From Pseudomonadota bacterium (GTDB lineage Bacteria; Pseudomonadota; Gammaproteobacteria; Burkholderiales; Rhodocyclaceae), in contig JAFEFC010000036.1 in assembly GCA_018240785.1 (NCBI GenBank), forward strand, positions 186,001 to 250,000: DNA of 64,000 bases, read 5' to 3'. The translations under genes were made by a program, and so were the position numbers. This document shows, in pieces, positions 12,310 through 45,918 of this stretch (position 1 is its first letter; every line of letters starts with the position of its first letter). A model generated the notes under the pieces. It was not told the DNA's origin. It saw only the letters and a program-made list of their open reading frames with translations, and made no database searches.

Positions 12310-13215
12310 TCAGAACGAAGCAGCCAATGCCGGCTCCTGCTCCTCGACTTGCGCCTCGGGCTCGCGCTCGGCGGGCTCGGTGGCCGTGTCGATGGCGTCG
12401 TCGGCTTCGGACGCGGATGCGTCTTCGGCCGGCGGCGCCTCGGGTTGCGCCTGGCTCGTCGGATAGACCTGGGTGCCGTCGATCTTGATCAGACCGATGT
12501 GGACCAGCGTCGATTCCAGGCTTGCGGCCGGTTCCCCGGCGTGCTCGCCCTTGGTGCGGATGTACGGATCGATCTTCATGTCGTTCAGACGGAAGGCGAT
12601 CAGCACCTTGCGGTCACCCTCGATGGCCTGAACGCACCGGCGAACCAGATGCTCGGCTTCCGGGGTGGCGACGATGGTGTCGAAGTACCGATACTCCGGT
12701 TCATCGACAGGCCCGGCCAGTGCTGCGACGGTGCAAGAGAGGAACGAGTCGCCAGCCTTTGGGGTGACGTCCTTCACACGATTGAGATAGCCGATGCCGC
12801 GGGTGATCAGCTCGTGCTGCTCGATCGAAGCCAGTTCGGCCCGGTCGATCAGTTCGGCCTTGAGCAGTCGCGCCTTGAGGGACGCGGCGGCCTGACCCTT
12901 CTGCTCACCCTTGTCGCGGATGTACGCATCGCCCCACAGGTCACCGAGGCGAAGTCGCACCAGCGGGCGCTGCTTGGGATCGTCAACGCCGATGTAGCGC
13001 TGAACGAGCTTCTTGGCCTCGGCACCCGAGACCTTGACGTCGAAGTAGCGGTAGCTGGGGTCCCGGGCGGGGCCGACCAGCGCGGCGATGGTGCAAGCAA
13101 GGAAAGGCTGCGCACGGCGGCCGCCCCGGACGGGCACTTCACGGACACGCTGGACGTAGCCGATGCCCGAGGTGTGGAGGTCGAAATACGATTTCTCGTT
13201 GGACGTGGTGTTCAT
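12310..13215 (-). CDS. DUF3577 (STY4534-type) protein with an internally duplicated domain
   Basis: The 301-residue product contains two copies of one domain. Copy 1 (about residues 17-75) has GIGYVQRVREVPV, FLACTIAALVGPARDPSYRYFDVKV; copy 2 (about 135-195) has GIGYLNRVKDVTP, FLSCTVAALAGPVDEPEYRYFDTIV. Each is followed by RLGDLW / RLNDMK and D.YIR.KGE. The tail is an acidic Ala/Glu-rich segment ending in LAASF. Such proteins are linked to ICE replication or maintenance in SPI-7-like islands, from context only. The start follows GGAGAT. Confidence 0.82.
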   Translation of the reverse strand: MNTTSNEKSYFDLHTSGIGYVQRVREVPVRGGRRAQPFLACTIAALVGPARDPSYRYFDVKVSGAEAKKLVQRYIGVDDPKQRPLVRLRLGDLWGDAYIRDKGEQKGQAAASLKARLLKAELIDRAELASIEQHELITRGIGYLNRVKDVTPKAGDSFLSCTVAALAGPVDEPEYRYFDTIVATPEAEHLVRRCVQAIEGDRKVLIAFRLNDMKIDPYIRTKGEHAGEPAASLESTLVHIGLIKIDGTQVYPTSQAQPEAPPAEDASASEADDAIDTATEPAEREPEAQVEEQEPALAASF

Positions 13216-13252
13216 GGTGAATCTCCATTGGGATGAAGCGGAGACACACCGG

Positions 13253-13290
13253 CCCACGCATGCGGGGAAGGTGCGTAACCCCGCGGTGGG
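13253..13290 (-). promoter_or_regulatory. Leader hairpin H10 before the DUF3577 gene
   Basis: Outer arms CCCAC and GTGGG with inner arms CGCGGGG and CCCCGCA around a loop; the stem spans 13253-13290 and is followed by GGAGAT. It shows the family layout most clearly. Confidence 0.65.
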
Positions 13291-13361
13291 TTGATAAGGC
13301 GAAAGCATCCGCCACCAGAGGCTGGTGGCCGCTCGCGGATGGATGCGGTGCGAGCTGGCTC

Positions 13362-13454
13362 GGTCACGCAGTGGGAACTGCGCCGCAACCTCGAAGACCG
13401 ATGGTTGCCTGGCATGTCGCTGACAACGTCAGCAGGCATGGGGTCAGCATGGCC
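13362..13454 (-). ncRNA. Three-hairpin RNA element, copy A
   Basis: On the minus strand the element reads CCATGCTGACCCCATGCC, then stem 1 GCTGAC/GTCAGC, ACATGCC, stem 2 GCAACC/GGTTGC, and stem 3 CGCAGT/ACTGCG. Three further copies lie at 15533, 18539 and 19439 with different but still complementary stems. It sits between XF1762 and the DUF3577 leader hairpin. Downstream a GCATCC...GGATGCTTT stem-loop follows. Structured RNA is inferred from the covariation. Confidence 0.65.
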
Positions 13455-13980
13455 GGGCCTCGCGCGCGCGGCAGCAATCAATCGGCATCCGGGTGCTTCC
13501 CTTTGTCCGCGCCGCCCGGCGCCTGCCACAGGCATTTGGGGCGGCGCAGGTGCTCGGGGTATCGGCGAGGGGGAGGCTGGGACGGCTCCAGGCGCCGCCG
13601 CCGCGCGCGCCAATCAGCCGCCAGCCGGCGGCGCGCGGGCTGGCGCCGCCTTCGTCGGGTAAGGTGTAGGTGATCAGGCGGATGTAGCCCAGCGACTTTG
13701 CCGCCTGCCAGGCCGCGCCGTATAGCTTGCTGCAGGCGTTGGGTGTGCTGTCGGTGCACAGCCGTGTGACTTCCCGCGTCCAGCCATCGTCCAGGTGCCG
13801 CGCGACCGGCCGGCCGACGATGGCCACGCCGCGGATCAGGTCGCTGTCGACCAGCGTGACGGCCAGGGCGAACTTCGCAGCCTGGACCGGACGGTGATGG
13901 TGTGCCAGCACGAAGACGTTGGCCGTGCGCAGCGACACCGGCAGCAGGTGCAGCCTCGGCGAGGTCGATGATGTGTTCAT
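13444..13980 (-). CDS. XF1762 family protein, probably frameshifted near its C-terminus
   Basis: The first 130 residues match the XF1762 family of small GNAT-like ICE proteins: VFVLAHHHRPVQAAKFALAV, RGVAIVGRPVARHLDDG, the stretch CTDSTPNACSKLYGAAW and LGYIRLITYTLPDE, GASPRAAGWRLIG. After GGGAWSRPS the reading frame gives an unlikely Cys/Arg-rich tail to 13444, whereas the neighbouring frame gives EHLRRPKCLWQAPGGADKG and stops at 13478, which fits the family ending. A one-base indel in the C-rich run at about 13565-13590 is the simplest reading. It may be a mutation or a sequencing error. The ATG at 13980 is accepted as start. Confidence 0.75.
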   Translation of the reverse strand: MNTSSTSPRLHLLPVSLRTANVFVLAHHHRPVQAAKFALAVTLVDSDLIRGVAIVGRPVARHLDDGWTREVTRLCTDSTPNACSKLYGAAWQAAKSLGYIRLITYTLPDEGGASPRAAGWRLIGARGGGAWSRPSLPLADTPSTCAAPNACGRRRAARTKGSTRMPIDCCRAREARPC

Positions 13981-14077
13981 GCGGTCGTCTCCGGTGGCAT
14001 GCCGGCGCTGTGGCCCGCGGGGCGTGCCTTGGCGGCTGGAGACGAACGCGCATGCGCGGCGATGGCCGCGGTGCGAA

Positions 14078-14104
14078 CAAAAGAAAGCCCCCGGTGCGGG
14101 GGCT
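14078..14104 (-). terminator. Rho-independent terminator after the DUF3085 gene
   Basis: Arms AGCCCCC (14086-14092) and GGGGGCT (14098-14104) are followed on the minus strand by TTTCTTTTG. It lies between the DUF3085 stop and the XF1762 start. Confidence 0.7.
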
Positions 14105-14130
14105 GCGAGGGCTGCGCGGCGGTTGCCGCT

Positions 14131-14484
14131 TCAGGCGGGAGGCACCACGGCCAAGGACAGGTGCGTGGCGGTGGCGGACAGCACGAGATCGTCCGCCGAG
14201 TGCAGGAGGCGCGTGAACAGGCCGTCCTTCGGGTCGAAATACTCCGCAAAATCGTCGCCACCCAGCTCGCGGCCGGCGAGGTGCCACCAGTCATCGAACG
14301 GGTCGGTGTCCGGGTTGCAGCCGACGGCGTAGGCGAGCAGTTGCTGGCGTCCATCCGGGCGACGCTCCCCACGCTCGGCGAGGAAGTACACGCCCTGGTC
14401 CTTGACCAGGACGATGCGGCACTGATTGGCGATGGCTTCGGTCAGCACGGGGCGCAGGTCGGCGCCTTTGAATCGCAGTGACAT
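14131..14484 (-). CDS. DUF3085 family protein
   Basis: A 117-residue protein starting MSLRFKGADLRPVLTEAI, with VLVKDQGVYFLAERGER, the conserved YAVGCNPDTDPFDDWW and a GGDDFAEYF segment near the C-terminus. These identify DUF3085, a small protein common in ICEs and conjugative plasmids with no known function. The ATG at 14484 follows AGGAGAT. A T-rich terminator hairpin lies immediately upstream of its leader, so its expression may depend on readthrough or an internal promoter. Confidence 0.82.
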   Translation of the reverse strand: MSLRFKGADLRPVLTEAIANQCRIVLVKDQGVYFLAERGERRPDGRQQLLAYAVGCNPDTDPFDDWWHLAGRELGGDDFAEYFDPKDGLFTRLLHSADDLVLSATATHLSLAVVPPA

Positions 14485-14502
14485 GGATGAAATCTCCTGT
14501 GT

Positions 14503-14545
14503 TAAAAAAAGAGAAAGGCCCTCCACCCGATGGGATGAAGGGCCT
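14503..14545 (-). terminator. Rho-independent terminator between the 274-aa gene and DUF3085
   Basis: Arms AGGCCCT (14516-14522 on the plus strand) and AGGGCCT (14539-14545) are followed on the minus strand by TTCTCTTTTTTT. The start of DUF3085 is only 20 bases further on, so the hairpin is in its leader. Confidence 0.72.
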
Positions 14546-14608
14546 GTAGGTCACGCGGCCGGAATGGCTGGAACGCCGTGGCGGGTGCCTCGGGTCAGCC
14601 GAGGGGCG

Positions 14609-15433
14609 TCATGCCGGGACGGCTTGGCGCTTACGGGCCGCCTTCGCGTCGAGGATGCTCACGTCGATCTGGCGCCAGCGCCCGTCGTCGATGAGCCGCT
14701 CCAGCACTTCGCCGAGCATGTCGAAATACACCTCGTCGTGCCGATCGACCAGTTCGACCGATTCACCGTTCTGACGGTGCAGTTCCACCACGTAGGTGTC
14801 TCCGCCGCGGTCGTAGAGGATCGTCACCCGGCCCTCGAACTTCGCGGTCGAGACCGTGAAGCTGATCGCCGGCGGGGTCTCGATGATCTTGGAGGGCGTG
14901 GGATCGACCCAGGTGAAGTCGCGGGCACCGGCATCCACCAGCATGTGGGTGATGCGCCGGAAGCGATCGGGGGCCGGCATCTCTTCCAACTGCTCGATGA
15001 GCTGGCCCAACTCCATGCACTGCGGCGTGGGAATGGGCAGCTTGGCCGGCGCCGAGCCGAGGATGTGCCTCGTGATGGTGTACGGCGTGCCGTCCGAAGT
15101 CTTCTCGGTGATGACCTCCGGCGTGTCCGCGCGCAGTCCGTCGAAGCGACGACGGGCATAGGGTTGGACATGCACCTTGGCGCCTTCGGCAGGAACCGTG
15201 GTCACCAGGCTGGGATCGAGCACCGCGAACTCGGAAGGCTTGAGCTTGACGACGATGGCATCGTCGGTCGCAGCGACCACCTTGCCGTCGAAGGGTTGGG
15301 GGTCGATGGCAAAGCCCAGCGTTGAGGACAGCGGCTGATCATCGAACACGCGGTACTTGAACGATCGCACGTTACGGGGCACATGGCCTGCGACCAGCGA
15401 AGGCATCATGGATTTGATGAGGGAACGGTCCAT
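14609..15433 (-). CDS. Conserved hypothetical ICE-core protein (274 aa)
   Basis: The product starts MDRSLIKSMMPSLVAGHVPRN. The first half has beta-rich segments (FKYRVFDDQPLS, VVAATDDAIVVKLKPSEFAVLDPSLV) and a basic YARRRFDGL; the second half has LGQLIEQLEEMPAPDRFRR and a C-terminal WRQIDVSILDAKAARKR. I recognise it as a regular member of this ICE gene set but cannot name a domain. The ATG at 15433 follows AAGGAG; earlier in-frame codons up to 15691 cover hairpin H11 and element B. Confidence 0.75.
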   Translation of the reverse strand: MDRSLIKSMMPSLVAGHVPRNVRSFKYRVFDDQPLSSTLGFAIDPQPFDGKVVAATDDAIVVKLKPSEFAVLDPSLVTTVPAEGAKVHVQPYARRRFDGLRADTPEVITEKTSDGTPYTITRHILGSAPAKLPIPTPQCMELGQLIEQLEEMPAPDRFRRITHMLVDAGARDFTWVDPTPSKIIETPPAISFTVSTAKFEGRVTILYDRGGDTYVVELHRQNGESVELVDRHDEVYFDMLGEVLERLIDDGRWRQIDVSILDAKAARKRQAVPA

Positions 15434-15467
15434 GGGGAAACTCCTTGAGAAATAACAAGGGATTCCC

Positions 15468-15499
15468 CGCCCGCAAGGGAGAGGTCCCTTGTGGGTGGC
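15468..15499 (-). promoter_or_regulatory. Leader hairpin H11
   Basis: Inner arms ACAAGGGA and TCCCTTGC with outer CCACCC and GGGCGG; same architecture as H10 with a different inner stem. Followed by AAGGAG and the ATG at 15433. Confidence 0.65.
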
Positions 15500-15532
15500 G
15501 TGGATGGACGCGGTAGGTCCGTAGGAAGAAAC

Positions 15533-15624
15533 GACCAGCACGGTTTCCCGTGCTTGCAGCCTCGAAGGTCTCGACTGCCTGGGCATGTGTCGGCAGCGCC
15601 GACGGACATGGGGTAAGCATGGCC
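15533..15624 (-). ncRNA. Three-hairpin RNA element, copy B
   Basis: Minus strand: GGCCATGCTTACCCCATGTC, stem 1 GTCGGC/GCCGAC, ACATGCCCAGGCA, stem 2 closing with AGGCTGC, stem 3 AGCACGG-GAAA-CCGTGCT. Flanks match copy A almost base for base, while the stems differ in sequence but stay paired. It lies upstream of hairpin H11 in the leader of the 274-aa protein gene. Confidence 0.65.
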
Positions 15625-15690
15625 CCGGGGTGGTCGGCCTGCCCGCAGGAAACGGCACCGCAACATGCCCGCATTCCTGTGCTGCGTACA

Positions 15691-15713
15691 AGAAAAAGCC
15701 CCTCGAAAGGGGC
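15691..15713 (-). terminator. Rho-independent terminator after the 92-aa gene
   Basis: Arms GCCCC and GGGGC around a TCGAAA-type loop (15698-15713) followed on the minus strand by TTTTTCTTG, nine bases after the stop of the upstream gene. Confidence 0.75.
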
Positions 15714-15721
15714 CGGAGGGG

Positions 15722-16000
15722 TCAGGCTTGGTACACGAAGTAGTGCTCGCGCTGACGCGGAAAGAACACGTGCTTCCACGTGTCCCCGCTTGTGTTGCCA
15801 CCGTCGAAGATGACCATTTCGTAGTCGTCCACGTCGGTGTCCATCAGGTCGGCGCTGGCGATATGGCGCATGTGCAGCATGCCGCTCATGCGCTCGACTA
15901 CCAGGATCTGGCCGATGGCATCGTCCTGGCTCATGGCATTGAAGCAGGCTCCAAGCTGGTGCTCGAAGTCCGATACGGGCGAGATGAGATCGGGGAACAT
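15722..16000 (-). CDS. Small conserved ICE protein (92 aa)
   Basis: The product begins MFPDLISPVSDFEHQLGACF and includes GQILVVERMSGMLHMRH, YEMVIFDGGNTSGD and a basic-aromatic end (FPRQREHYFVYQA). It is a short alpha/beta protein without membrane segments. It has its own leader hairpin H12 and a TAGGAG Shine-Dalgarno, and is closed by a terminator. Function unknown. Confidence 0.72.
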   Translation of the reverse strand: MFPDLISPVSDFEHQLGACFNAMSQDDAIGQILVVERMSGMLHMRHIASADLMDTDVDDYEMVIFDGGNTSGDTWKHVFFPRQREHYFVYQA

Positions 16001-16023
16001 GGGATCGCTCCTATGAAAGTGAA

Positions 16024-16055
16024 CCGGCCCGGCTCCCTGGCGGGAGACGGGCCGG
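16024..16055 (-). promoter_or_regulatory. Leader hairpin H12
   Basis: Arms CCGGCCCG (16024-16031) and CGGGCCGG (16048-16055) with an inner CTCCC/GGGAG pairing; the AGGAG of the 92-aa gene follows on the minus strand. Confidence 0.6.
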
Positions 16056-16096
16056 CATGCGGTGAGGAAAAGGTAGGCTGGGGATGTGTCTGGCAG

Positions 16097-16828
16097 TTAT
16101 TCGCCGGCCAACGGCAGGCCCGGCAACACGGGTGCGTCGGCATCGAGAATGAGGATGCGCACATCGGCCTGGCCGGCCAGTGCAAGGATCTGTGCCAGGT
16201 CGTCCGGCATGCCCTTGCTGCAGTGCTCCTGCCGAAGCTGCTCGGCGGAGATCTCCTCGACGTCCTGCAGGTGCTGGCCCGTCCAGGGCGTGGAAATCAG
16301 CTTGACGCCGATCGCCGGGCTGTAGGGAACCCGGAACGCAATGAACAAAAAGGCTTCCGGCGTCGCGAGGTCAGCCAGGTTGGCCAGGTACTGGCCGGTT
16401 TCGTGGCTGATGTGCGCGCTGCTGATTTCCCAGCACCGGCTGTAGTAGCCGGTCTCGAAGCTCAACCGCTGCACGACTTCCCGTGCGGCCTCGGCCGAAT
16501 AAGTGTCGCCAATGTGGACGGGGAGGCCGTCGAAGTCGTCGCCGTGGATCGCGTACACCACGGCACCCACCACGCCGTAGGCGCCTTCACCGGCATCGCG
16601 TTCGGCCAGCACCTCGGCACTCACGGAGTCTGGGCCATTGCTGACTACGGCGAAATCGCTGGTGACGATGCAGGATGCTGAAACCAGCTCCTCATCGGAG
16701 AGGTGTTCTTGGCTCTGGTGGATGTTTCGCCAGACATGCGGGCTTCCGTCCTCGTGGCTGATGGACAGCGTGCGGACGATTTTCAGATTCCAGTAGCCGC
16801 GTAGAAAGGGATTGGGATTCTGGGACAT
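16097..16828 (-). CDS. ABC-like beta-rich ICE protein, DUF5983-like C-terminus (243 aa)
   Basis: The start MSQNPNPFLRGYWNLKIV at 16828 follows GGAGAA. The N-terminal half has VRTLSISHEDGSPH and a Ser/Asp-rich stretch; the C-terminal segment DDLAQILALAGQADVRILILDADAPVLPGLPL resembles the ending of DUF5983 proteins of ICEs, a name recalled from memory. The 84-residue extension upstream to 17191 is rejected because it crosses a leader hairpin and the next gene. No catalytic motif is seen; function unknown. Confidence 0.72.
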   Translation of the reverse strand: MSQNPNPFLRGYWNLKIVRTLSISHEDGSPHVWRNIHQSQEHLSDEELVSASCIVTSDFAVVSNGPDSVSAEVLAERDAGEGAYGVVGAVVYAIHGDDFDGLPVHIGDTYSAEAAREVVQRLSFETGYYSRCWEISSAHISHETGQYLANLADLATPEAFLFIAFRVPYSPAIGVKLISTPWTGQHLQDVEEISAEQLRQEHCSKGMPDDLAQILALAGQADVRILILDADAPVLPGLPLAGE

Positions 16829-16864
16829 GGGATTTCTCCAACAGAATAATGATGGAGCCAATCC

Positions 16865-16894
16865 CCGCCACCGGGAATTGACCCCGGTGGGTGG
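16865..16894 (-). promoter_or_regulatory. Leader hairpin H13
   Basis: Arms CCACCGGG and CCCGGTGG around AATTGA (plus-strand view), flanked by CCGC and GTGG; on the minus strand it begins CCACCC and is followed by GGAG and the ATG at 16828. Confidence 0.65.
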
Positions 16895-16911
16895 AAAGAA
16901 AGGAAACAGCG

Positions 16912-17598
16912 TCAGGTGACGCTGATCGTTGGCGTTTGGGCCAATCGCTCGGCGACGCGTCGGCGCAAATTCATGCGGAATGGCTCGTCGCTGACGCCCG
17001 CCAGCAGATTGATGGTCTCCAGCGCAATCAGGGCCGAGGCCTCTTCGATGTCGGCGGCCACAATGGCCTTGCGCAGTTGGTCGCCGAGCTGGAGGGCCTG
17101 CGAGGAGGAACTGATGACGCGGACCTCGCGGCTCAGGTAGCAGCCGTTGCCGCCGAACTCGAACAGCCGCGGCTTGCTGCAATACCAGCATCCCTCGAAC
17201 TGGATGGCGGTCAGGTGGTGGCCGTCATCGAATCGGGTGGCGATCAGAAACAATGCGTCGAGATCGGCGGTGTCCTCGAACGAATGACGCTCGATCAAGT
17301 TCCCCAGCTCTTCGTCCTCATCGGCACCGAAGTGCACGGCGAGCAGTTCGAGCAGCGGCGGGATCGAAAGCCCTTCGTCGTCCGGCATCGGAATGCCGAG
17401 TTGCGTGGCCAGGTCTTCCAGGCCATCGAGCACGTCCGGCCATTGCGGATTGGTGGTCTCGGCGATCTGGGCGATGTAGGCCTGCCCGTTGCCGGGATGG
17501 CTCTCGTCCAGCGCGAAGGCGCCGAACAGCGCCTGGATGACGGGCGTCACACGGTCGAGCACGAGAACGCCGGTGGCTTCGTAGTAATTGTTGGCCAT
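16912..17598 (-). CDS. Conserved hypothetical ICE-core protein (228 aa)
   Basis: The product begins MANNYYEATGVLVLDRVTPV and has an acidic helical first half (PDVLDGLEDLATQLGI, LLELLAVHFGADEDEEL), a central aromatic motif FEGCWYCSKPRLFEFGGNGCYLS (23 residues, so described here only by its paired Cys at WYC and GC) and a C-terminal helix ending in AQTPTISVT. The paired cysteines could bind metal. The ATG at 17598 follows AAAGGAG. No family name is known to me. Confidence 0.72.
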   Translation of the reverse strand: MANNYYEATGVLVLDRVTPVIQALFGAFALDESHPGNGQAYIAQIAETTNPQWPDVLDGLEDLATQLGIPMPDDEGLSIPPLLELLAVHFGADEDEELGNLIERHSFEDTADLDALFLIATRFDDGHHLTAIQFEGCWYCSKPRLFEFGGNGCYLSREVRVISSSSQALQLGDQLRKAIVAADIEEASALIALETINLLAGVSDEPFRMNLRRRVAERLAQTPTISVT

Positions 17599-17630
17599 GA
17601 AGGCTCCTTTCGATGAATGAACGGAGCCAG

Positions 17631-17658
17631 CCCTTGCGGACGATGGCATCCGCAGGGG
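17631..17658 (-). promoter_or_regulatory. Leader hairpin H14
   Basis: Nested arms CCC/GGG and TGCGGA/TCCGCA around GATGGCA-type loop; the AAAGGAG of the 228-aa gene follows 20 bases later on the minus strand. Confidence 0.6.
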
Positions 17659-17700
17659 AACCGCCTGATGCCGGATGGCACTGGGCGGGGAGAAACGCGA

Positions 17701-17731
17701 GGGACATGGCCTCGGGCGAGGCGCATGTCCC
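17701..17731 (-). terminator. Strong hairpin after the 130-aa gene
   Basis: Arms GGGACATG (17701-17708) and CATGTCCC (17724-17731) enclose GCCTC/GAGGC, giving a nearly continuous 13-bp stem. It follows the stop at 17779 by about 50 bases; the tail GCGTTTCTCC is only partly T-rich. Confidence 0.5.
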
Positions 17732-17778
17732 TCATGGGGTCGCGTGAACGCAGTGATGAAGGTGTGCCGGGGACCGGC

Positions 17779-18171
17779 TCACCAACCGCTGTAGTTCAGC
17801 AGGAGGTCGGCGATCACCTGGCGACGAGGCAGATCGAGGCCGTCGAAGTCCGACAACCCGTTGAAGTGGCAGCGCTTGAGCATGGCACCGCCCTCGCGCG
17901 CGTTGTAGAAGCTGACCATCGCGGACAGGAACATGCGTTCCCCGCTGCTCAGGACGCCGAGGGCGTCGTTGAGGCGCAGCATGTCGGGGCGCAGATCCCA
18001 CTTGCTCTTGGCCTGGTTCAGACCTTCACGGGTGCCATCGCCAAACCATTGCGGGCCGGCGATCTCGACACCACGCTTCCATGCCTCGAAAAAGGCTTGG
18101 GGCGCGGCGCTGAAATGCCGTTCTTCCCGAACGATCTGATCGACGACTTCCTGCGGCAGTAGCTGGTTCAT
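17779..18171 (-). CDS. Small conserved ICE protein (130 aa)
   Basis: The product starts MNQLLPQEVVDQIVREERHF and includes FFEAWKRGVEIAGPQWFGDG, LNDALGVLSSGERMFLSAMV and a short C-terminal block RRQVIADLLLNYSGW. The GERMFLSAMVSFYN helix resembles helical bundle regulators but is too short to classify. It is followed 21 bases upstream by the 73-aa gene and both are probably translated from one message. Function unknown. Confidence 0.72.
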   Translation of the reverse strand: MNQLLPQEVVDQIVREERHFSAAPQAFFEAWKRGVEIAGPQWFGDGTREGLNQAKSKWDLRPDMLRLNDALGVLSSGERMFLSAMVSFYNAREGGAMLKRCHFNGLSDFDGLDLPRRQVIADLLLNYSGW

Positions 18172-18192
18172 GACGTGATTCCTCCAGTTGGA

Positions 18193-18414
18193 TCAGGGAA
18201 CGGCGAGCTGGGACCAGCCGCCTCTTTCGAGGGCACGTTGAGCCGCGGCATGGCTGCGGAAGTACTCACGAGATTCCCGCGAAACGGGACCTTCGGTATC
18301 GCGCGTGCCGATGTAGTGGCCGGCGGCGCTGTGCAGGACTTCGAGCGGCAGGAACTTGCCGCAGTAGGTCAAGGCCAATTGACCGAATCGGCCGAAAGAG
18401 GCTTGCTGGGACAT
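18193..18414 (-). CDS. Small conserved ICE protein (73 aa)
   Basis: From the ATG at 18414, preceded by AAGGAG, the product reads MSQQASFGRFGQLALTYCG, then FLPLEVLHSAAGHYIGTRD and SREYFRSHAAAQRAL. It is basic and compact. The segment GHYIGTRDTEGPVSRES is characteristic of small proteins in this ICE position. No function is known. It has leader hairpin H15 and the three-hairpin element C upstream. Confidence 0.68.
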   Translation of the reverse strand: MSQQASFGRFGQLALTYCGKFLPLEVLHSAAGHYIGTRDTEGPVSRESREYFRSHAAAQRALERGGWSQLAVP

Positions 18415-18445
18415 GGATGGGCTCCTTGGAAAAGCGGGGCCCTGT

Positions 18446-18476
18446 CCCTCACGGGATGGCAGCTCCCGCACGCGGT
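18446..18476 (-). promoter_or_regulatory. Leader hairpin H15
   Basis: Core arms CGGGA and TCCCG around TGGCAGC, in the leader of the 73-aa gene, followed by AAGGAG. A run of seven T residues lies just upstream of it on the minus strand. Confidence 0.5.
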
Positions 18477-18538
18477 TGAAAAAAAGCATCAGCGTCTTGG
18501 CGACGCGCGTCCGCGCAATGGATGCGATGCGGACTGGT

Positions 18539-18624
18539 GGGTTGCGCGGGGAGAACCCCGCGGCAGCCTGAAACCCTGGCTGCTGGCATGTGCTGACGAA
18601 TCAGCGAGCATGCGGGCAGCTTCG
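18539..18624 (-). ncRNA. Three-hairpin RNA element, copy C
   Basis: Minus strand: CGAAGCTGCCCGCATGC, stem 1 GCTGA/TCAGC, ACATGCCA, stem 2 GCAGCC/GGCTGC, stem 3 CGCGGGG/CCCCGCG. It is followed by a further stem-loop closed by GCATC/GATGC and seven T residues, as also seen in weaker form after copy A. Confidence 0.65.
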
Positions 18625-18693
18625 TGGGGGGGGCGCGCCACGTCAGTTGGAAATCGGCATCTGGTCCAGCCCCGATTGATGTACGCAGAGACA

Positions 18694-18721
18694 AAGAAAA
18701 GCCCCGCAGCAAGTGCGGGGC
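18694..18721 (-). terminator. Rho-independent terminator after the 185-aa gene
   Basis: Arms GCCCCGC (18701-18707) and GCGGGGC (18715-18721) followed on the minus strand by TTTTCTTTG. It separates the 185-aa gene from element C. Confidence 0.78.
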
Positions 18722-18747
18722 GGTCATGACGGTGCGGTGAGGCTGGA

Positions 18748-19305
18748 TCAGCGGGGCTTGTCGCCCAGGACATGCTGCTTCCAGATGGCGAATGCCTCGT
18801 CCGCTGGCAGCTCGGCCAGGATGACGATGGGCTGGTCCTGTCGGCTGCGCAGCTTTGCGAAATACGCTGCGCGGTCGGCAATGGCCTTGAGCTTGATGCC
18901 CTTGAGGAACAGCAGCCTGCCGTCCTTGATGAACAGCACCTTGTTGCCGATGTCGCGGTTGAACGCGGTGCGCAGCTTGCGCTCCGCGTGCATGGCATCG
19001 GCCAATTGGTCCACTAGGAAGTCGAGCGTCATGTCGATGAGAAGCGGCTCGTCGTCTTCGCGTTCGACGTCGAGCGATGCCGGCGGCAGGCTCTTGGCGA
19101 ATTCCTCGGCCTGGGCCAGCAGCGCGGCCTGGCCTTGCAACGCGCGCACGAACGTCGAGCCGCCGTGTCCGTCGTTGCGGGCTTCGGCGATGGGCCTGCC
19201 GTCGAACATGACGGTGGCGGTGAAGCACAGCGTTTCCTCGCTCGCGAAATCCGCGACCTTGAGGTTCTTGAGGGTGATGCGGTCTTGTCGGGTGATGGTG
19301 TCCAT
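18748..19305 (-). CDS. Conserved hypothetical ICE-core protein (185 aa)
   Basis: The start MDTITRQDRITLKNLKVADF at 19305 follows AGGAC. The N-terminal half is a beta-rich domain with LCFTATVMFDGRPIAEARNDGHGG, which matches small ICE proteins that open with the phrase SEET(L/I)CF. The second half is basic and helical (DQLADAMHAERKL, FIKDGRLLFLKGIKLKAIAD). It has no membrane segment. The role is unknown. Hairpin H16 and element D precede it. Confidence 0.74.
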   Translation of the reverse strand: MDTITRQDRITLKNLKVADFASEETLCFTATVMFDGRPIAEARNDGHGGSTFVRALQGQAALLAQAEEFAKSLPPASLDVEREDDEPLLIDMTLDFLVDQLADAMHAERKLRTAFNRDIGNKVLFIKDGRLLFLKGIKLKAIADRAAYFAKLRSRQDQPIVILAELPADEAFAIWKQHVLGDKPR

Positions 19306-19341
19306 GGGAAGTCCTGATATCGACCGGGTTGACGACACGCC

Positions 19342-19371
19342 CCTGACGGGACGCGGCATACATCCCGTGGG
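19342..19371 (-). promoter_or_regulatory. Leader hairpin H16
   Basis: Arms ACGGGA (19346-19351) and TCCCGT (19363-19368) inside AACCC and GGGG outer arms; it sits about 35 bases before the ATG at 19305. Confidence 0.6.
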
Positions 19372-19438
19372 TTGGAGGAAGGTGGCATCGATGCCCGGTG
19401 GGCAGCGTTCGCCGGAGAGATGCCGGGGCGAACTGGCG

Positions 19439-19515
19439 GGTGGCGTGGGCGGAACCCACGGCAGTCTGGACACCCTGGCTGCTGGCTGTTGCCGATGCGT
19501 CGGCAATGCAGGAGG
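19439..19515 (-). ncRNA. Three-hairpin RNA element, copy D
   Basis: Minus strand: CCTCCTGCA, stem 1 TTGCCGA/TCGGCAA, CAGCCA, stem 2 GCAGCC with GACTGC, stem 3 CGTGGG/CCCACG around TTCCG. Copies C and D share the sequence CAGCAGCCAGGGT exactly. It lies upstream of the 185-aa gene. Confidence 0.65.
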
Positions 19516-19548
19516 GAGGATCGTGCGACCCGCCGGCCGCGTCTTGCA

Positions 19549-19681
19549 TCAATCCGAAGCGATCGATCCCGTCTTGTGCAGGTACTGCACCAGCCGGCGT
19601 CCCCAGCCACGCGACGCACTGCACGGCCATGGAATTGCCGATCGCCTTGCAGTTCGGTGCATCGGCGGTGCGTAGTGAGGC
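19549..19681 (-). pseudogene. C-terminal remnant of a DNA cytosine-5 methyltransferase
   Basis: The minus strand encodes TADAPNCKAIGNSMAVQCVA followed by WLG and, after one extra base, RRLVQYLHKTG. This is the C-terminal motif X region of 5-methylcytosine methyltransferases (AIGNSMAVxxxxWLGxRL). The rest of the enzyme is absent: upstream lie a Shine-Dalgarno, an out-of-frame ATG at 19707, hairpin H17 and a terminator. It appears to be a deletion and frameshift remnant of a gene that once stood between topB and the 185-aa gene. Confidence 0.55.
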
Positions 19682-22268: not shown

Positions 22269-22473
22269 GTCCGTCCATCCGCTTCCCGTTGTTCATGGAG
22301 TTGCTGGGATCGAGGATGCCGAGCGCCTGTTGGGGCAGCAGCAAACAAGCTGCATGCGGCAGCGACCGCTTTCACGCCGATGGAACGGCTTGGGCGGGAT
22401 GGCGTGCGGCCGGCGGTGTGCGAGCCGGGAGCCGCGATGTTCGGGAGCGCGCGGAAGCCGGTGGACGCTGATG

Positions 22474-24389: not shown

Positions 24390-24620
24390 GGTGAGCGCTC
24401 GCAGTTGGACAGGGAGCCGCCAGCATCCGCATGCAGCGGAAGGCAGTCAGTCAACAAACCGAAATGAGCCGGCCCCCGGTTCTATGCGCGCTGGCGGCGC
24501 AGCGCGCAACGGTCCCTTGGAGGCCGGAGCATTCACGTTGGCGCTCCGTGCCTCGGTCGTTGACGGTATGCGTACTGCACCGCACGTCGCGCTGCCGTTC
24601 GACACGATCCTTCGCCGCGC

Positions 24621-24855
24621 AGCCGTCCCCAGTGGACCGTTCCGTTGAGCGCCATGGAGGTCTGCTTCATGGTCTTGCAGGCGCTCTACTCAGGTTTTGC
24701 GCAGCATGTCGCGCCGTCGTCCGGCGTTTCACCACACAGCCGTCCCCTGGGGACCGTTTCTGCCGACCGCCAAGGAGGTCTGCTTCATGGCCTTGCCAGG
24801 CCCTGCGCTCAGGATTTGCGCAGCAGATCGCGCAGGCGCTCGATGTGCTGCCGGG
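24621..24855 (-). repeat. Imperfect tandem duplication of about 118 bp after the replication gene
   Basis: Matching landmarks are repeated 117-119 bases apart: AGCCGTCCCC (24621, 24738), GGAGGTCTGCTTCATGG (24656, 24774) and CAGG(T/A)TTTGCGCAGCA (24691, 24810). The unit includes the last codons and stop of the STY4528-type gene, so the second copy preserves a decayed version of that ending. On the minus strand each copy holds an ATG opening MKQTS: 24729-24788 (19 residues) and 24533-24670 (45 residues), and a hairpin of GTCCCC/GGGGAC type. Confidence 0.7.
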
Positions 24856-45249: not shown

Positions 45250-45448
45250 AGCTGTAGACGTGACGACGGGGACCGAAGTCCCCGCCGGCTTTTCTTTGGT
45301 AACAAGGCTCAAGCAGCCTCGGCATAGGCCTTAAGCGGCCAGTGCGAAACGCTCATCGTTGGCGTTTGTGGTTTTGCGCGGATTACGTCCGTCGCCTCTC
45401 GGGTTGCCTGCTCACCCTTGCCCGCCCTGTCGAGACCAGGTCAGCCCC
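45250..45448 (-). ncRNA. ssrA: Two-piece tmRNA, coding piece (tag ANDERFALAA)
   Basis: On the minus strand the piece starts GGGGCTGACCTGGTCTCGAC at 45448, the 5' acceptor strand and D-like loop of tmRNA. The tag reading frame at 45363-45331 encodes ANDERFALAA followed by TAA. The seven 5' bases GGGGCTG pair with CAGCTCC of the acceptor piece (one G-U). Because this piece lies downstream of the CCA end, the gene is circularly permuted. tmRNA rescues stalled ribosomes with SmpB. The 3' end near 45250 is approximate; a GGGGAC/GTCCCC hairpin is the last structure. Confidence 0.88.
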
Positions 45449-45484
45449 GTCAGAAGAAAACGCGCTCTGAAGGACATTCCCTTT

Positions 45485-45595
45485 TGGTGGAGCTGGGGGG
45501 AATCGAACCCCCGTCCAGAACGTCTCCGGCTTGCCGGAATTACAACCATGCCTGCATTGTGGGGGCGTGCGCGTCTGGTTTCAAGCCCATGCACC
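45485..45595 (-). ncRNA. ssrA: Two-piece tmRNA, acceptor piece
   Basis: The 3' end at 45485 reads CAGCTCCACCA, preceded by a T-arm GGGGG-TTCGATT-CCCCC. The 36-base spacer to the coding piece (45449-45484) is removed during maturation of permuted tmRNA. AGGTGCATGGGC at about 45590 resembles the conserved element next to helix P2. The 5' boundary is estimated. Confidence 0.85.
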
Positions 45596-45918
45596 TCCGA
45601 CCGGTGGTGAATCTGTAACGCGATGCGACGAGGACAGGGCTGAAAGCGCCGGTCCAGCGGGGTTGATGTTGCACTGCATCCACGCCCTCGCTGCAGAACG
45701 TTCCCCCGCGAGCGGTTTGTGCGAAAGATTTTTTCCGCCGCCGACGAATTCACGCCGCATCGAGGAAATTTTCCGCCGCGGCTTCTCCGTACGATGCCAC
45801 CTCGCCGTTCGCTGACGAGGACGAGCGCCAAGACCAACCATACAGGAGACAACGTCGTCAGGCCGGACGCCCGCGCCAACAGCGCGCCGCGTCGGTGCCC
45901 GCGACGGTTCACGCCACC
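45596..45918. other. Spacer between ssrA and the oxidoreductase gene
   Basis: No gene is recognised. It must carry the ssrA promoter (minus strand) and the promoter and leader of the oxidoreductase gene (plus strand); an ACAGGAGAC lies at 45842 but is too far from the chosen start to be its ribosome site. Confidence 0.5.

Follow-up and report, generated by a model that had tools for sequence, protein, structure and literature searches.

The window analyzed here, a 64,000-nt stretch of contig JAFEFC010000036.1 from a bacterium of the family Rhodocyclaceae, holds an integrative and conjugative element (ICE) with four copies, named A to D, of an RNA that almost certainly is radC RNA (Rfam family RF01754). 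All four copies lie on the minus strand, are about 140–150 nt long and precede a gene on that strand. Copy A (13305..13450, predicted transcription start near 13439) stands before the gene of an ICE replication protein of the STY4534/DUF3577 type (12310..13215, ATG start; NF040584, PF12101); its family match is split into two stretches, as a doubled domain would produce. Copy B (15467..15620, predicted start near 15609) is followed by a gene at 14609..15433 that matched no Pfam family at an E value of 0.01. The gene after copy C (18486..18622, predicted start near 18611) is located at 18193..18414, and that after copy D (19385..19521, predicted start near 19510) at 18748..19305, with no family assigned to the latter.

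The original prediction had described four minus-strand copies of a three-hairpin RNA whose stems vary but remain paired, and both the reading of the window and the alignments agreed with these copies and stems. The spacers it delimited comprise only the 5' two thirds of the RNA, and the 3' domain runs on for another 40–60 nt. It had not recognized the element but had itself named the radC motif as one for comparison, and this proved to be the identity. The window was scanned against all of Rfam 15, where the gathering cut-off of RF01754 is 40 bits. Copies A, B and C exceeded this cut-off with 124.8, 106.5 and 94.5 bits, respectively (the match of B spans 15620-15469), while D yielded no RF01754 match up to an E value of 1. 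Of the covariance models, which had also been proposed, the one built from 36 sequences included all four window copies, so that its window scores (112, 83.9, 82.9 and 49.3 bits, the last for D; next place 18.5 bits) are partly circular. A held-out model was made of 30 relatives, with no window copy and no D-type copy among them. In an unfiltered scan of the window, it recovered A (102.4 bits), C (74.9 bits), B (71.2 bits) and D (28.4 bits, E value 2.5e-6), the next place scoring 15.5 bits. The D-type copy of the related element of Paraburkholderia xenovorans LB400 reached 45.8 bits with the held-out model and 69.8 bits with the Rfam model, and the counterpart of D at the matching place of another contig (C9) of its own genome reached 62.5 bits, above the Rfam cut-off. 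Because of the held-out score, its position and these kin above the cut-off, D was filed with radC RNA; judged by sequence, it is a real but divergent relative.

In the genome of the window, 18 matches were above the cut-off; the same contig carries one of these, located about 22.5 kb past the left edge of the window. Among 199 genomes of the same family, 27 had a match at an E value of 0.001 and 26 a match above the cut-off, stricter filters losing weak matches. A sister genus had matches in 7 of 13 genomes, and a sample of the phylum in 6 of 398, the window's genome counted. Around the PFL_4669/AcaB gene of related elements, 44 of 80 named loci held at least one match (127 matches in total); many of these loci end before the radC RNA region. 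The LB400 element carries five copies in all.

The nested hairpins 1–4 are those of Rfam. When 36 sequences were aligned by MAFFT on sequence alone, 86.4% of the cells paired, as compared to 27–47% when the partners were slid by 1–3 columns, and two-sided change was seen in 38 of 50 pairs. As expected for RF01754, hairpins 1, 2 and 3 were all present in this order, with 81.7, 99.1 and 88.7% of cells paired, respectively. A further pairing, PK1, between the loop of hairpin 2 and a strand 3' of hairpin 3, was first spotted in the four window copies, where it reads CGGUC/GACCG in A (13400-13396/13365-13361), GACC/GGUC in B, GGGUU/AACCC in C and GGGUG/CACCC in D. The 3' end contains two interleaved stems, S1 (GUUCGC/GCGAAC) and S2 (GCAUCC/GGAUGC), which in A lie at 13355-13350/13336-13331 and 13346-13341/13310-13305. 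Their counterparts are GUCCGC/GCGGAC and GCAUC/GAUGC in C, and GUUCGC/GCGAAC and GGCAUC/GAUGCC in D, which has lost the outer CAUG pairs of hairpin 1. Copy B has a 3' domain of a second kind, a local hairpin in place of S1/S2, and B-like 3' domains also occur among homologues: 9 of 33 non-redundant sequences, the B-like ones included, lack S1 and have another 3' domain.

Both pseudoknots were analyzed among homologues. On the MAFFT alignment, PK1 paired in 87.6% of cells, with two-sided change in all five pairs, S1 in 87.0% (4 of 6 pairs) and S2 in 84.8% (3 of 6 pairs). Of 178 matches, the homologue alignment comprised the best 150; the 28 with the lowest scores, including window copy D, had been dropped before the structure tests made with it. 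With 111 distinct sequences aligned by a model without these stems, PK1 paired in 86.6% of cells as compared to 9–44% in slid versions. Taken alone, PK1 failed two of five measures against shuffles, namely the counts of pairs changed on both sides and of pair types (204 and 464 of 500 shuffles reached them). A tree-aware simulation at the helix level with all 111 rows gave z values of 6.4 for PK1 (p 0.0017), 6.3 for S1 and 4.1 for S2, while the 3-bp 3' stem drawn by Rfam had no covariation support (z 0.1, p 0.27). One slid version of PK1 still reached a z value of 4.0, an unfavorable control. For S1, the value from all 111 rows was relied on, since the result on 85 'class I' rows is biased by their having been picked for S1 pairing. 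A p value of 0.01 was reached by 13 of 32 single nested pairs, by 2 of 5 in PK1 (one of them only 52% paired) and by 1 of 6 each in S1 and S2; none of eight unpaired controls reached it. Thus, the homologues support two pseudoknots, PK1 and S1/S2, that are not drawn in the printed Rfam alignment. The sequence comparison likewise supports a two-part RNA: a conserved 5' domain, whose three hairpins are linked through a pseudoknot, and a 3' domain that can be swapped, being either the second pseudoknot or a local hairpin.

The unpaired CCCAGG and CUUCAAG rank among the most conserved bases. Among the 33 non-redundant sequences, G-U cells outnumbered A-C cells (113 vs. 37), in agreement with function on the sense strand. 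The folding energy was only modestly unusual (z values of -1.5, -3.0, -3.9 and -1.1 for A, B, C and D; 26 of 200 shuffles folded at least as well as D), so that the case for structure rests on covariation. An intrinsic terminator formed by the 3' stem was rejected for most copies, as the T run after GGAUGC is mostly lacking in the leaders inspected; the C type has one.

Placement was analyzed with 179 distinct RNAs, collected from the best 150 matches and the 127 matches of the AcaB loci, 178 of which had at least 300 nt behind them. A gene start on the same strand was found 3' of 177 of these 178 copies, at a median of 79 nt (middle half 67–93 nt), in line with the cis position of RF01754. 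The same lax finder applied to the antisense upstream side gave 110 of 175, scattered around a median of 196 nt (middle half 71–279 nt). The downstream proteins formed 14 clusters, the largest being the group of the C and D genes (43), STY4534 (32), the B gene (31) and RadC (20). Covariation among homologues and this placement bear out the proposal of a selected RNA structure repeated across one ICE before genes. Its detail that each copy lies between a terminator-like hairpin and a gene holds for B (15714-15697) and C (18721-18701); for A and D, the hairpin scan found none directly upstream. Very probably, radC RNA is a cis-acting 5' leader of ICE messages.

Two kinds of promoter signal were found at a fixed distance from the RNA. 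In a sister family of that of the window (f15), the best promoter-like pair ended at RNA nt 2–6 in all 16 non-redundant copies, 14 of which had a TTGAC -35 element. This end point places the start at about nt 9–13, in the first pairs of hairpin 1. The other, ICEclc-type group showed no excess promoter score (7.17 vs. 7.02 shuffled), and xAxxxT occurred at the spot of the f15 promoter end in 62% of 60 copies. A box,.AAa..GGg........AATgCcGATTtcc, was present about 56 nt upstream in 73 of 81 non-redundant copies of ICEclc-type elements. The boxes of A, B, C and D were located on the minus strand at 13477..13506 (56 nt before the RNA), 15647..15676, 18649..18678 and 19548..19577, respectively. 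With a position weight matrix (PWM) that had seen A–C, they scored 25.7, 25.2, 29.5 and 18.4. After retraining, which took this matrix as its starting point, with A–C and anything 70% alike removed, the scores were 24.1, 24.1, 28.0 and 19.5, D-type boxes being in that training set. A further box at an inrR-type promoter (24453..24482, minus strand), which was in neither training set and has no radC RNA, scored 18.1 and 18.6, respectively. With the retrained matrix, the five highest-scoring sites across both strands of the window were the boxes of C, A, B and D and this promoter before the AcaB/inrR genes. In the LB400 element, the same box lies directly before the published inrR promoter elements (-35 TTGACT, -10 TGTCGATCCT). 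A weaker match (22344-22373, minus strand; 12.2 and 12.3, with noise at about 9–10) precedes the topoisomerase III gene and has a positional counterpart in LB400. The stretch upstream of the inrR-type promoter (24530-24830, minus strand) holds a roughly 115-bp repeat (ACCATGAAGCAGACCTCC ... CCCAGGGGACGGCTG) in two degenerate copies, recognized by eye.

ICEclc was mapped via the LB400 element. For 95213, 94175, 91884 and 89746, the LB400 stops were identical to the positions in the ICEclc open reading frame (ORF) names; for 88400 and 84835, they were one base off at most, and beyond these they drifted. By this map, the genes after B and C are the positional counterparts of ORF84835 and ORF88400. 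ORF81655 is probably the STY4534 gene after A, because its distance to the helicase gene, itself an inferred match, amounts to 7979 by ICEclc names, as compared to 8049 in the window and 6236 in LB400. The three highly induced core transcripts of ICEclc in stationary phase on 3-chlorobenzoate or fructose are 68241-81655, 83350-84835 and 85934-88400 (PMC2892462). Thus, the three most induced ICEclc transcripts begin with the genes after B, after C and probably after A. Upstream of 81655 and 88400, 5' rapid amplification of cDNA ends failed (Gaillard et al., PMC2892462), and a weak primer-extension product is given about 250 bp before ORF81655 (PMC2892462); the predicted start of A lies 224 nt before its gene. 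For inrR, the published start is placed 25 nt ahead of the start codon in the text but at 96,204 in Table 1 (PMC2892462), two values that did not match up. In stationary phase, RNA-seq coverage rises upstream of 81655, 88400, 84835 and 89247 (Sulser 2022, PMC9286271). The same source describes bistable promoters at 88400 and 81655, with BisDC dependence and subpopulation expression, and a 27-bp motif common to eight promoters, inrR among them. We infer that the box is this published motif. A pairwise 27-mer comparison of seven LB400 regions revealed no other common motif, and the box emerged only from the alignment of many copies. The idea that the 27-bp motif is radC RNA itself was rejected, since LB400 has five radC RNAs as compared to eight promoters, and none at inrR.

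The interpretation we favor, with a probability of about 0.4, is that radC RNA serves as a folded leader controlling the lifetime or the translation of the message behind it. From promoter anatomy, transcription would start at about RNA nt 12, so that the first nucleotide would already belong to hairpin 1 and the message would have hardly any free 5' end. The promoter type that sets this start in the ICEclc family would be the one common to inrR, a known transfer-competence promoter. The folded 5' end would fix the lifetime and output of the transfer-gene messages in two ways, blocking decay pathways that depend on a free 5' end and presenting two conserved unpaired stretches, CCCAGG and CUUCAAG, to some factor. 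In many copies, the start of the downstream gene would be held in a Shine-Dalgarno hairpin, a possible output at translation. A more far-reaching version, which we consider tentative, is that radC RNA is an element-wide post-transcriptional switch: a double-pseudoknot leader, fused to a transfer-competence promoter, would read one signal or one RNA-binding protein and adjust all main transfer messages together, in lifetime as well as in translation. The 'ICE-wide RNA regulator' of the original prediction would fit the cis position, the common promoter box and the repetition.

Several observations weigh against folded-leader control. Of the 178 copies, 20 precede radC genes, and in 19 of them hairpin 2 contains the UAG stop of the ORF before. 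The RNA is therefore internal to an operon there and no plain 5' cap, and a bare 5' cap is not the whole story. The promoter box is absent from all eight non-redundant radC-gene copies, which are all eight box-less copies. Across D, reverse transcription PCR (RT-PCR) joins ORF89247 and ORF89746 (PMC2892462, Table 1). For ORF84835 (B) and ORF89247 (near D), the upstream reporter fragments had no bistable promoter activity (PMC9286271), which speaks against start sites at B and D unless the fragments were too short, as its authors allow. The Shine-Dalgarno hairpin reached the threshold in 26 of 43 leaders, with only 14 of 43 beating 95% of shuffles, and is absent in the B, C and D types. The presence of invariant unpaired bases is more suggestive of specific recognition than of passive protection. 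In L001, L019, L204 and other radC-gene copies, the UAG occupies RNA nt 45–47, so that the first 47 nt are also coding.

An alternative is a riboregulator sensing a ligand or protein, with the conserved 5' domain as the sensor and the variable 3' domain plus leader as the output, mainly on translation. The conserved sensor-like domain with its invariant unpaired bases and swapped 3' domain, the Shine-Dalgarno hairpin in many leaders and the several copies per element before different genes make this a possible reading, somewhat behind folded-leader control. At least 12 unrelated downstream protein clusters, all in mobile-element settings, indicate no common metabolic pathway, however, and the output hairpin that B, C and D types lack is the one this alternative would employ. 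A simple Shine-Dalgarno switch common to all copies is unsupported. A processing or stabilizing element inside longer messages, with no tie to a promoter and with nearby cleavage making the 5' ends, would suit the internal radC-gene copies. Coverage rising without promoter activity at ORF84835 and ORF89247, for which the authors mention transcript processing (PMC9286271), would also suit it. Fixed-distance promoter elements in 14 of 16 f15 copies and 73 of 81 others argue for regarding it as improbable.

A trans-acting small RNA or a single-stranded DNA signal in transfer is very unlikely: the constant distance to a same-strand gene start, the RNA-type promoters and the lack of a T run after the 3' stem in most leaders inspected (the C type being the exception) oppose it, even though multiple copies and mobile-element-like settings in all loci examined would agree with it and G-T pairs are also workable in single-stranded DNA. 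Scarcely more probable is a processive antitermination element, such as put or EAR RNA, for long transfer operons. The place of the RNA near the start of long ICE messages would agree with it, and terminator-like hairpins do occur within the operon of B (14104-14086) as well as ahead of B and C. Yet, the units defined by RT-PCR and Northern analysis end at these places, with no run-through (PMC2892462).

Many gene leaders of the element, with or without radC RNA, contain two successive hairpins, the second of which includes the Shine-Dalgarno sequence immediately ahead of the start codon. Such pairs were located on the minus strand at 13215-13270, 15433-15475, 16831-16885 and 17601-17650. A small comparison with host genes of the window, in which several start coordinates were 3 nt off, showed no clear difference. 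Elsewhere in the window, the Rfam scan detected a two-piece (permuted) tmRNA gene of the betaproteobacterial type at 45261-45598.

These results place radC RNA at the main messages of ICEclc-type elements, which are well studied as a model of gene transfer and in which its promoter, start site and structure are open to ordinary genetics. The promoter box is a candidate site for the activator of ICEclc-type elements. If the proposed switch were true, an RNA layer would be added to their bistable control.

As to known systems, radC RNA was listed in 2010 as a certain RNA, probably cis-regulatory, with riboswitch status open (Weinberg et al., PMC2864571, Table 1). In the literature searched, from which subscription journals are mostly absent, no functional study of radC RNA was found, and two 2026 ICEclc papers had no passage on the motif or RNA terms. 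STAXI RNA (RF01728; PMC2864571) resembles A–D in being repeated, pseudoknotted and on mobile elements, with sites near ssb, topoisomerase and antirestriction genes; it differs by its tandem pseudoknots and its occurrence in Enterobacteriales, and the window contained no STAXI match at E values up to 1. With RF01754, the copies share hairpins 1–3, the conserved CCCAGG and CUUCAAG, the 3' hairpin and the place before genes in Proteobacteria. They depart from it in that D is below the cut-off and in that homologues support PK1 and S1/S2 instead of the 3-bp 3' stem of Rfam. Rivas 2020 (PMC7657543) reports covarying pairs missing from the database structure of radC; these may already include PK1 and S1/S2, which are not claimed as new. 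As to the transfer-competence promoters of ICEclc (PMC9286271), the box of A–D is also present at the inrR promoter, which is one of them, and those of ORF88400 (C) and ORF81655 (probably A) are two others. Of the eight promoters with the 27-bp motif, radC RNA accompanies only these two, at C and probably at A.

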